DNA of 64,000 bases. Source: Halococcus hamelinensis 100A6 (lineage in GTDB: Archaea; Halobacteriota; Halobacteria; Halobacteriales; Halococcaceae). The notes beneath the pieces were generated by a model. The model worked only from the letters and a program-made list of their open reading frames with translations. It was not told where the DNA came from and searched no databases. The position numbers and the translations under genes are program-made. Below are positions 1,216-12,838 of the stretch, one piece after another. The stretch's first letter is position 1, and every line of letters starts with the position of its first letter. The DNA lies in contig NZ_AOMB01000040.1 of the NCBI RefSeq assembly GCF_000336675.1, forward strand, positions 3,496-67,495, written 5' to 3'.

Positions 1216-3336
1216 ATGAGCGAGTTGGATGGACGACCCAGGGGAGCTGACAAGGAGCCGTTCTTCGAGGCTCCGGAGGGCGGTGGGCTGGTCGCGGTCG
1301 ACCCTATCGAGCGCCATCGCTACATGCTGTCGACACCGAAACCGGTGCAGCCCGAGCCCGCTCCGACGGACGACTTCCGGTTTCCGGTCGATACCGCCGT
1401 TTCGATCCGTACCGAAGCCATCTCGCTGCCGAGTGTCGTCTCCGTGCACGTTCGCGACGGGGACGGAACACCGCTGTGTGAAGCCGAGCATTTCGCCTTC
1501 GAGGAGCTACCCGCGGGCCGGTATACGATCGAGCTGAGCGCGCCGATCAAGCTCTATCTCCTGGTCGAGAGCCCTATCACGCTGCGCGCCACCGCCGAAA
1601 CCATGCGCATCGAGTTCGGCGGTTCGACGGCGGTGGTGGTGGGAGCGCGCTCACACCACGACCAGCCGGCGGCGACGGTGACGACGACGTCGGACCCCGA
1701 GGACCTGATGCGGGCGGTCTCGACGTTCGGTTCGGCCCTCAAGACGACGAGTCCGGAGCGCTCGTTTCCGACCCTCAGGGGTCATCCACCACTGGTCGAA
1801 CTCGGCGAGGAACTCGACCTCGCAGGGCTCGAACCGCCCGATTCGGGTGTCGTTATCGAACTTCCGACCGACCGCCGCATGATATTCGTCGCTGCGCCGC
1901 TGGCGTACTACCTCGGCGCGCGGCTGGTGCCCGGCGATGAACCGCTCCTGCAAGCCGACACTGGGTTCGAATACGATCTGGATGGACCGCTGGGGTTCGA
2001 ACGGACCGTCGAACGCACCCTGAAACAGGTGTTCTTCCTCGACTGTCTCACACGTACCGAAGGGCTCACTCCTGTGAGGGTTCACGAGCGGGAGGCGCTC
2101 GAAGGCGACCTCGAACTCGACTTCGCCGGTCTGTATGATGATTCGTTGGCCGATCAACTCGAAGCCTATCTCGCGATTCCGTTCGAGACGCTCGAAGCCC
2201 ACGTCCCGAAATGGAAGCTCACCACTCACGTGGAGCCCACGGCGTCCAGCGTCGAGATGCTCCCGTTCGCCGTCAACGACCTCGCCATCGTCCGGTGTAG
2301 CGATCCGACGAGCGCACCGAATCCCGCCACGTCGGGAGCCGTAGAGACCGGTGGAGCTGCAGTGGCTGAATCGGCTCGACGCGATGGTTTCACGCGGAGT
2401 GCGAGTTCGGGGAGCGTCGCCCGGTCCGGGGATACGTTCGTGGAGCCGGAGCTGGACGGGTCGCTGGAACAGATGTGGGTGGGCGAGGGGACCCCCGTGA
2501 ACGCGAGCAAGGCGTCGATCGAAGCCTACCGGCATCGGCTCGATCGGACGCCCACTGCCGGTGACATCGAGATCACGGTCGTCTGTAACGACGCGACGAT
2601 GGACGAGGAGCGTGATTTCATCAACGAGGTCTACGGCGAGCGCGACGAGTTGCCCTTCGAGGTCTCCGTCGAGCGCGAACTCACGACCACGGAGCTGAAG
2701 GAGGTGCTCTCGTCCCGGACCGATTTCCTCCACTACATCGGCCACGTCGACCCGGAGGGCTTCGAGTGCGCGGACGGCAAACTCGACGCGACGACGTTGG
2801 AATCCGTCGGTGTGGACGCGTTCCTGCTCAACGCGTGTCGATCCTACCGCCAGGGCATGGCCCTCATCGAGCACGGGGCCATCGGTGGTATCGTTACACT
2901 CAGCGACGTCCTGAACTGTGAAGCGGTCAGGATCGGACGGACGCTTGCACGCCTGCTCAACTGCGGGTTTCCGCTCCGTCCAGCGCTCGATATCGCGCGT
3001 GACGAGAGCATCATGGGCGAGGAGTACCTCGTCGTGGGCGACGGAACCCTCTCGATCGCACAGGCCGAAAGTCTGACCGCGAATCTACTGCACGTGGAAC
3101 GCAACGACGGACTGTTCGATTTGACGTTCAGTGCGTATCACACGTCGAGAACCGGAATGGGAACGTTGGTGGTGCCCCATCTCGACGACAGCGAGTACCA
3201 CATCTCTACCGAGAACATTCGAGAGAACGGTCTCACGCAGAACGAGCTTATGGATTTTCTCCCACTATCGGACGCACCGACTAAGATCGATGGGAAATTG
3301 CGGTGGAGTTCTGAGATCGACGCTAACGAGCTATAG
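1216..3336 (+). CDS. CHAT-domain (caspase-like) protein
   Basis: The 706-residue protein carries a caspase-like dyad in its C-terminal half: His510 in FLHYIGHV and Cys541 in FLLNACRSY. This matches the CHAT family, cysteine proteases related to separase and caspases. The stretch after the cysteine (GGIVTLSDVLN) fits the conserved glycine-rich segment. Residues 1-430 form a long domain I do not recognise, followed by a serine- and glycine-rich linker at about 390-440. No signal peptide or membrane helix is seen, so it should act in the cytoplasm. It converges, two bases apart, with a 45-residue membrane peptide gene. Bacterial CHAT proteins can cleave partners in antiviral cell death; such a role here is inference. 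Confidence 0.75.
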   Translation: MSELDGRPRGADKEPFFEAPEGGGLVAVDPIERHRYMLSTPKPVQPEPAPTDDFRFPVDTAVSIRTEAISLPSVVSVHVRDGDGTPLCEAEHFAFEELPAGRYTIELSAPIKLYLLVESPITLRATAETMRIEFGGSTAVVVGARSHHDQPAATVTTTSDPEDLMRAVSTFGSALKTTSPERSFPTLRGHPPLVELGEELDLAGLEPPDSGVVIELPTDRRMIFVAAPLAYYLGARLVPGDEPLLQADTGFEYDLDGPLGFERTVERTLKQVFFLDCLTRTEGLTPVRVHEREALEGDLELDFAGLYDDSLADQLEAYLAIPFETLEAHVPKWKLTTHVEPTASSVEMLPFAVNDLAIVRCSDPTSAPNPATSGAVETGGAAVAESARRDGFTRSASSGSVARSGDTFVEPELDGSLEQMWVGEGTPVNASKASIEAYRHRLDRTPTAGDIEITVVCNDATMDEERDFINEVYGERDELPFEVSVERELTTTELKEVLSSRTDFLHYIGHVDPEGFECADGKLDATTLESVGVDAFLLNACRSYRQGMALIEHGAIGGIVTLSDVLNCEAVRIGRTLARLLNCGFPLRPALDIARDESIMGEEYLVVGDGTLSIAQAESLTANLLHVERNDGLFDLTFSAYHTSRTGMGTLVVPHLDDSEYHISTENIRENGLTQNELMDFLPLSDAPTKIDGKLRWSSEIDANEL

Positions 3337-3338
3337 AA

Positions 3339-3476
3339 TTACGGGCCAGCGTAGGCACTAGAGTGAGCCGCTGCTGCGCTGCCCACCTGTGACAGGAGGG
3401 TCATCAGGCCGAACAGCGCGGCGAGGGTTTTCGGGTGGTTCTGTAGGTACGTCCGGAGTTCGTTGGTATCGGACAT
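3339..3476 (-). CDS. 45-residue single-pass membrane peptide (DUF7503-like)
   Basis: This short gene starts MSDTNELRTYLQNHPK, has one hydrophobic segment (about residues 18-37), and ends HSSAYAGP. An AT-rich TATA-like element (3502-3514) lies 26-38 bases upstream on the same strand, as expected for a leaderless transcript. I recall a family of haloarchaeal peptides of this shape, filed as DUF7503, but cannot verify it here. It is convergent with the CHAT gene and its stop codon lies two bases from that gene's stop. The role is unknown; a membrane-active partner or substrate of the CHAT protein is a hypothesis. Confidence 0.65.
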   Translation of the reverse strand: MSDTNELRTYLQNHPKTLAALFGLMTLLSQVGSAAAAHSSAYAGP

Positions 3477-3755
3477 TGCGTTTTACCGGAGACGCGCCCT
3501 CGATATGAATATTTTCGAATAGTTATGATATGAACTGAATTGGTTTTTCTCGTAACATCATAGAGAATTCCGAATGAGACCTGTGACTCGCCCGGCACAT
3601 CACGATAGTGTCCGTTGTAGCCGTGCGCCTCCGGACTATCGACCGAATTGAAGCGTGAAGCAGCCTACAGTTGGCAACCGCTATACGTGGGGAGAGGGAG
3701 TAGGGGCGGCGTCTGCAAGCCCCTATTTCATACGAAATACGACACTACTCGTCTC

Positions 3756-12622: not shown

Positions 12623-12694
12623 CATCGCTGGGGAAGCTCGGGGCCAGTGTACGGACTCTGTCAGTCCGCAAGTCGGGCGGCGGACGCACTCTCG

Positions 12695-12838
12695 GACATC
12701 GACCCGAGACCGGAAGTCGTCCGCCCAAACCGGTTCAGGCTGGGGTATCTCCGGTGTCGACAGCGTGTATCGATGGCGCTCTCCGAGGTCGACCGCCGCC
12801 AGCTCACCGCCGTCTATCCCCTCGAAGGGGAGCGCCAC
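12695..12838 (-). pseudogene. N-terminal fragment of a second CHAT protein gene
   Basis: Read on the minus strand, 48 codons give LPFEGIDGGELAAVDLGERH, then RYTLSTPEIPQPEP and WADDFRSRVDV. This matches residues about 20-65 of the intact CHAT protein at 1216-3336: by eye 27 of 44 positions are identical, including ERHRY, LSTP and QPEP. The similarity stops after VDV and the rest of the gene is absent. The fragment has no clear start codon of its own. It is best read as a decayed paralog. The surrounding 12623-13112 shows nothing else I can support. Confidence 0.65.

Follow-up and report, generated by a model that had tools for sequence, protein, structure and literature searches.

A caspase-fold protease gene of haloarchaea and its convergent DUF7503 partner: a putative recognition cassette at abutting gene ends

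Introduction

What might a caspase-like protease do with a 45-residue peptide whose gene ends 2 nt from its own stop codon? The question is raised by a locus of Halococcus hamelinensis 100A6, situated in a stretch of 64,000 nucleotides of contig NZ_AOMB01000040.1 that was analysed as a whole and is called the window below. A sequence-only reading had described the locus as a complete CHAT gene (His510, Cys541) and a single-pass peptide gene lying tail to tail, which proved correct, and had proposed a protease that releases or activates a membrane-damaging partner. CHAT proteases of this kind are known from Craspase (TPR-CHAT with Csx30), SAVED-CHAT and the CHAT-activated bacterial gasdermins, with which the present locus shares the protease fold and the encoding of a partner by an adjacent gene (PMC9729208). 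Based on comparative sequence analysis, the membrane-effector mechanism is disfavoured here, and it is replaced by a putative cassette on a caspase-fold protease, in which a short tag of the partner and the C-terminal domain of the protease would be cognate to each other. The features of the locus are compiled in Table 1.

Table 1 Features of the CHAT/DUF7503 locus (positions in the window)
Feature	Position	Strand	Basis
CHAT (separase/caspase-like) cysteine protease gene, 706 aa	1216..3336	+	ORF, model, fold matches
N-terminal beta-rich domain, residues 16-145	1261..1650	+	Secondary structure of the model; no family match
Alpha/beta domain, residues 154-361, with conserved ERSxPTLRGHPP and APLAYYLGA motifs	1675..2298	+	Model, alignments
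Catalytic caspase-like domain, residues 418-608	2467..3039	+	Invariant His and Cys, fold search
Hypervariable C-terminal domain, residues 612-706, putative tag-recognition domain	3049..3333	+	Covariation with the peptide tail
Recombination island joining the CHAT C-domain and the peptide tag in the family	3049..3368	.	DNA identity and pS profiles of relatives
45-aa peptide gene, Pfam DUF7503 (PF24335)	3339..3476	-	E 1.2e-18
Hydrophobic helix or signal-sequence-like segment, peptide residues 17-36	3369..3428	-	Read from sequence
C-terminal tag, last 9 residues (A, then HSSAYAGP)	3342..3368	-	Hypervariable except GP
AT-rich promoter-like element, about -28 to -44 from the peptide start	3503..3520	-	AT content in relatives

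Results

Fold of the protease

The codons of the catalytic dyad, CAC at 2743-2745 for His510 and TGT at 2836-2838 for Cys541, specify residues that were invariant in an alignment of 55 CHAT homologues. Profile searches of Pfam and NCBIfam left the window protein, whose N-terminal 430 residues had earlier been noted as unlike any familiar family, without a match, and neither a TPR nor a SAVED domain was detected with these two collections. The Pfam CHAT profile matched 6 of 25 relatives weakly (best E 0.007) and the window protein not at all, and a sequence search of solved structures returned nothing convincing.

The full-length protein was modelled with AlphaFold2 (pLDDT 87, pTM 0.87) and the model was compared to the PDB using Foldseek. 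Separases were the best fold matches, alongside SAVED-CHAT, gingipain R and TPR-CHAT (E down to 7.8e-8). Two viral fold matches (E 7e-5 and 1.7e-4) were also obtained. As judged from the model, the window protein is a protease of the clan-CD/CHAT fold with a predicted His-Cys dyad in the right order, and residues 154-361 probably constitute a pseudo-caspase domain. As part of the full-length model the C-domain was predicted well, and it contains invariant residues; modelled alone (pLDDT 77), it matched no known fold. An export signal was not seen in the protein. A sensor function had been suggested for the N-terminal part, for which distinct beta-rich and alpha/beta domains are predicted, whereas the part that bears specificity appears to be the C-terminal one.

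Pairing of the two genes across haloarchaea

The peptide matched the DUF7503 profile with 66.8 bits (cut-off 27) over profile positions 1-42 of 42. DUF7503 was found in 335 of 391 haloarchaeal species (about 86%) and 73 of 86 genera; a chance open reading frame was ruled out by the match and by the presence in 335 genomes. The window CHAT protein alone as query gave no match in the genome contigs, and an alignment-based query retrieved 377 CHAT relatives. Relatives of the protease are present in 365 of the 391 haloarchaeal genomes.

Within the family of the window, all 27 DUF7503 copies (18 genomes) were convergent with a CHAT relative. The same tail-to-tail order was met in the best 30 fetched copies (30/30) and in a further 20/20. 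From the side of the protease, a convergent partner was present at 134 of the 137 fetched CHAT loci, a set that includes some genomes fetched twice, with a median gap of 1 nt and gaps of up to 260 nt. Two of the three partnerless entries represent a single locus containing masked bases; the third is from Natronomonas. As control, 375 other ORFs of the CHAT loci were inspected; a convergent ORF ending in GP was found at one of them and DUF7503 at none. The co-occurrence predicted by the sequence-only reading is thereby strongly upheld, and peptide homologues apart from any protease gene, which would have spoken against it, did not turn up, since every DUF7503 copy checked adjoins a convergent CHAT gene. 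Gene order across these loci shows that the CHAT and peptide genes are inherited as a unit.

DUF7503 is a Pfam family of unknown function, as is DUF7504, which is described below. No paper on DUF7503, haloarchaeal CHAT or their pairing was found in a literature search for which subscription journals and preprints were mostly out of reach. The pair has probably gone unnoticed because the protease misses the Pfam CHAT cut-off and no function is assigned to its partner of 45 aa.

Partner proteins with and without a helix

In its usual form the partner consists of a leader, an HP[RK] motif, a hydrophobic helix and a tail of about 9 residues, and in such helix-type peptides the tail is preceded by small residues, often Ala-x-Ala. 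A GP end was present in 101 of 119 DUF7503-type peptides and another end in about 15%. Among close relatives, variability peaks in the tag at positions -6 and -5; GP does not vary, and most of the helix varies hardly at all. The AYAGP end, previously noted as conserved-looking, is therefore conserved as to its GP, and its AYA is hypervariable. By a positive-inside reading, the tag of the helix form should lie outside the membrane. Upstream of the peptide gene, the AT content reached 84-88% at -40 to -28 in 106 distinct upstream regions, so the gene is predicted to have its own AT-rich, promoter-like element.

In Haloplanus, the DUF7503 position is occupied by a gene that overlaps CHAT by 4 nt and encodes no helix, consisting of tandem 13-residue units (e.g. 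TADGNGGGISGPY) in 2-13 copies (loci L210-L215, L114 and L131; L131 and L212 are from the same species). An 11-residue core is identical among the units, except for one position in one unit of L215, and the codons differ: at L212, 13 identical peptides are encoded by 13 different DNA sequences, all 393 pairwise codon differences between them being synonymous (0 nonsynonymous). By this codon comparison, the Haloplanus tag units are under extreme purifying selection. Where an array has taken the place of the helix without a large change of the tag, the CHAT C-domains resemble each other about as much as those of two helix-type loci. Some paralogues of Halococcus and of the related genome G006 (loci L011, L024, L025, L061, L106 and L107) have, as a third form, a soluble Cys-containing partner that ends in CTYSGP and overlaps CHAT by 16 nt. 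The helix-free partners of Haloplanus and Halococcus are devoid of an export signal.

Since the tag was retained in Haloplanus and in some Halococcus despite loss of the helix, the tag and not the helix is the persisting part. Comparison of the three carriers (membrane helix, soluble leader, tandem array) thus shows a tag that outlives its carrier.

A recombination island across the abutting gene ends

Sliding DNA identity between relatives was about 80-98% up to a point near -285 nt relative to the CHAT stop, dropped there to about 45-65% and returned to 76-100% inside the peptide helix, with boundaries that coincide in five pairs. L140 and L170, both with an ordinary DUF7503 partner, have a low pS in the CHAT body (0.10) and in the leader and helix of the peptide (0.07), against values of 0.78 for the last 100 CHAT codons and 1.00 for the tag. 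The Halococcus paralogues L010 and L011, which have different partner types, are 86-96% identical in CHAT up to residue ~605 and 42% thereafter. The same-tail pair L145/L151 showed a shallow identity dip only, and the window compared to its nearest relative (L005) showed a mildly diverged island (pS 0.32). A pS jump of >0.25 in the last 97 codons was found in 22 of 27 comparisons for CHAT and in 2 of 110 for other genes.

As pS is high inside the island and low on both flanks, recombinational replacement is suggested, beyond fast local evolution alone. These profiles indicate that the island was replaced by recombination between conserved flanks.

The tag and the C-domain change together

Tail changes were compared to C-domain distances in 54 close pairs, using the adjacent CHAT segment as control. 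The C-domain distance was 0.07 for identical tails (n=10, max 0.20; control 0.03), 0.35 for 1-2 tail changes (n=29; control 0.05), 0.45 for 3-4 changes (n=12; control 0.08) and 0.54 for at least 5 changes (n=3; control 0.13). The partial correlation of tail and C-domain in close pairs was r 0.62 (p about 7e-4 when tails were permuted within clusters), the pairs being phylogenetically non-independent and drawn from five clusters, one of which comprises nine Haloferax. In the whole set of 110 loci, the tail partial correlation picked CHAT residues 146-360 and not the C-domain. The test was confined to close pairs because distances were saturated over all 110 loci, a restriction chosen after the whole-set result was known. 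For distant pairs, tail similarity tells little about the C-domain. The pair of Haloferax gibbonsii and H. prahovense (L137/L143) illustrates the effect: the CHAT bodies hardly differ, the C-domains show a 23% difference, and the tails are GIIYGP and GVIYGP.

In these alignments of close relatives, the tag and the last ~95 CHAT residues are shown to change together as one exchangeable DNA block. That the two also match each other we can only infer, because the segments are physically linked, the pairs are non-independent and the close-pair restriction was made afterwards. With this qualification, the covariation suggests a lock-and-key recognition system, and the cassette may be read as a cognate ligand/receptor unit that controls a caspase-like protease.

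Discussion

Proposed recognition module

On balance, we lean towards cognate recognition, i.e. a haloarchaeal protease C-domain matched to a GP-ending tag of ~9 residues, as somewhat better than an even bet. The CHAT C-terminal domain would recognise the tag, and binding of the matching tag would set the state of the protease. The tail-to-tail order may have been kept because it brings the matching segments next to each other and lets them be swapped jointly. The own tag, concentrated at the membrane or on a multivalent array, could restrain the protease like a securin-type pseudo-substrate, and its loss, mislocalisation or mismatch would unleash proteolysis. Helix (membrane concentration) and array (multivalency) would then be two possible ways of presenting many tags.

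Several observations weigh against cognate recognition. One recombination tract would carry both linked segments even if they were not functionally matched, and the support from close pairs is weakened by their non-independence and by the uninformative tails of distant pairs. Furthermore, the tag of the helix form is predicted outside the membrane, whereas CHAT is without an export signal, and about 15% of DUF7503-type peptides end in something other than GP.

As for the direction of control, inhibition by the tag is tentatively regarded as likelier than activation, albeit with considerable doubt, because CHAT of the window clade almost never occurs without a partner, yet a frameshifted CHAT copy on contig 37 of H. 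hamelinensis, split into two frames, keeps an intact peptide gene. An extension to allorecognition is conceivable by analogy and rather improbable: in each lineage the own tag alone would restrain CHAT, and a foreign tag/C-domain allele brought in by cytoplasmic mixing would unleash the protease and kill or separate the hybrid, a situation likened to fungal heterokaryon incompatibility. Cells of haloarchaea fuse with continuous cytoplasm during mating (PMC7838353). With the cassette, self/non-self recognition between fusing archaea could be put to the test in a laboratory host that is genetically tractable.

Alternative explanations

The outward topology of the tag is accepted at face value if DUF7503 is a secreted peptide signal, that is, a Sec-like signal sequence from which a tail of 8-9 residues is released outside, with polymorphic pairs as in agr. 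The Haloplanus arrays would be multi-copy precursors, and CHAT would act as processing enzyme or as receptor after re-uptake. The short leader with HP[RK], the hydrophobic stretch, the small residues (often Ala-x-Ala) before the tail, the matching of a hypervariable tail to a hypervariable domain and the tandem identical units all fit. Against it stand the helix-free partners, in which an export signal is missing, and the sole recurring close neighbour found, which is DUF7504 (35/80 loci) and not a transporter or sensor kinase; moreover, the disk-forming signal of Haloferax volcanii resists proteinase K and was termed a small molecule (PMC12240190). A secreted signal is hence considered unlikely, at a chance of roughly one in a handful.

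A membrane-damaging effector that is released or activated through cleavage by CHAT, for cell death or defence, was the mechanism originally put forward. CHAT proteases often act on the products of neighbouring genes (PMC9729208), the pairing is strict, and the common partner form has one hydrophobic helix. Exactly this helix is missing from Haloplanus and some Halococcus partners that keep the tag, and covariation with the protease was seen for the tag and not for the helix; the membrane-damaging role is not supported. As for the defence part, the window CHAT has no PADLOC match (one weak Effector/1TM match, E 0.013, among 25 relatives), phage records and IMG/VR gave no sequence relatives, and presence in most species is unusual for a defence system. 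An effector of this kind now appears improbable.

The island itself could be a passive recombination or gene-conversion hot spot under relaxed constraint at abutting 3' ends, the two segments moving jointly from adjacency only. Physical linkage and the convergent arrangement favour this, as do the several CHAT copies and remnants per genome, which are possible donors. It is difficult to reconcile with the purifying selection on the Haloplanus units, with GP being fixed inside the island, with boundaries that recur at the same domain border, with the other gene ends of the same loci, which show no such jump, and with a C-domain that is well predicted and retains invariant residues; we give it little credence. 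A type I toxin-antitoxin-like pair, with the helix peptide as toxin and the 3' end of the CHAT transcript as the antisense RNA that silences its mRNA, would suit a small single-helix peptide with its own promoter-like element and stops that abut or overlap (median gap 1 nt), which permits antisense overlap, but it is very improbable, as it leaves the 2.1-kb protease, the covariation and the soluble arrays unexplained, and gaps of up to 260 nt and helix-free partners argue against a common membrane toxin.

Relation to known systems

The putative recognition cassette differs from the Craspase, SAVED-CHAT and gasdermin units in having no CRISPR, SAVED or TPR part. Its partner is a helix peptide of 42-47 aa or a soluble tag protein or array, in contrast to Csx30 or a gasdermin of ~200 aa or more, and compared to known CHAT-substrate pairs its genes are convergent with hypervariable cognate ends. 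Separase and securin are alike in fold and in the proposed pseudo-substrate restraint, which here is a proposal; the haloarchaeal peptide bears no sequence relationship to securin. In agr, a hypervariable block likewise spans the ligand and the recognising part of its partner, and allelic groups exist (PMC10482373). The haloarchaeal pair, however, comes without AgrB, AgrC or AgrA, its partner is a protease, and its genes are convergent.

Metacaspases and orthocaspases are also caspase-fold His/Cys proteases, and few archaeal members were listed in a survey of prokaryotic metacaspases (PMC3501461). In contrast, none of the Pfam families of metacaspases or caspases was matched by the window protein or its relatives, for which Pfam gave weak CHAT matches only. 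Haloferax volcanii exhibits strong caspase-like activity for which no gene homologue is known (PMC3615174). CHAT has a caspase-type fold in the model and occurs in many Haloferax, and H. volcanii carries DUF7503 and DUF7504; CHAT is thus a candidate gene for this orphan activity of Haloferax (PMC3615174).

Regarding the exchangeable block, a comparison can be drawn across all these families. To our knowledge, no CHAT, caspase or metacaspase system has a C-domain and a partner tag that are exchanged as one polymorphic cassette.

Genomic context and further observations

In 35 of 80 loci (L102-L181), the gene immediately preceding CHAT in the same orientation encodes DUF7504 (PF24336), mostly at a distance of 38-180 nt, and some of the CHAT-adjacent DUF7504 proteins have an N-terminal HalOD1 output domain, which hints at a possible control by signals. 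No DUF7504 gene adjoins the window copy. CHAT and DUF7504 were the only close recurring neighbours that the analysis characterised, and a set of AgrB-type exporter, sensor kinase and response regulator is absent from the window. A CRISPR-type cluster was not seen among the top recurring neighbour clusters, the window's neighbours gave no gasdermin match in Pfam, and a defence-island reading was not supported by the recurring neighbours of CHAT loci.

CHAT relatives are carried by 25 haloarchaeal plasmids. Within the window, a remnant on the minus strand (12659-12826) resembles CHAT residues 17-72 (37 bits), which suggests past CHAT copies on the same contig. Other H. hamelinensis contigs (C19, C31 and C37; loci L069, L070, L003 and L022) hold broken or frameshifted CHAT copies, and therefore fast turnover is indicated.

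The more divergent CHAT paralogues (about 35% identity) are often without a partner, and a few have a GP-ending partner of their own. A second CHAT lineage without peptide (L062-L068), about 35% identical to the window protein, occurs in related genomes. At five divergent loci (L226, L227, L229, L236 and L237), other convergent partners ending in GP were found, and their tails (TTTTPGP, TTVTSGP, ADVSPGP and SSSPYTGP) belong to proteins that fall close to or under the limit of DUF7503 detection. Four genomes of family f19 (G402, G411, G420 and G429), which lie outside the sampled class Halobacteria and within the same phylum, also contained distant CHAT relatives (E 1e-64 to 1e-69).
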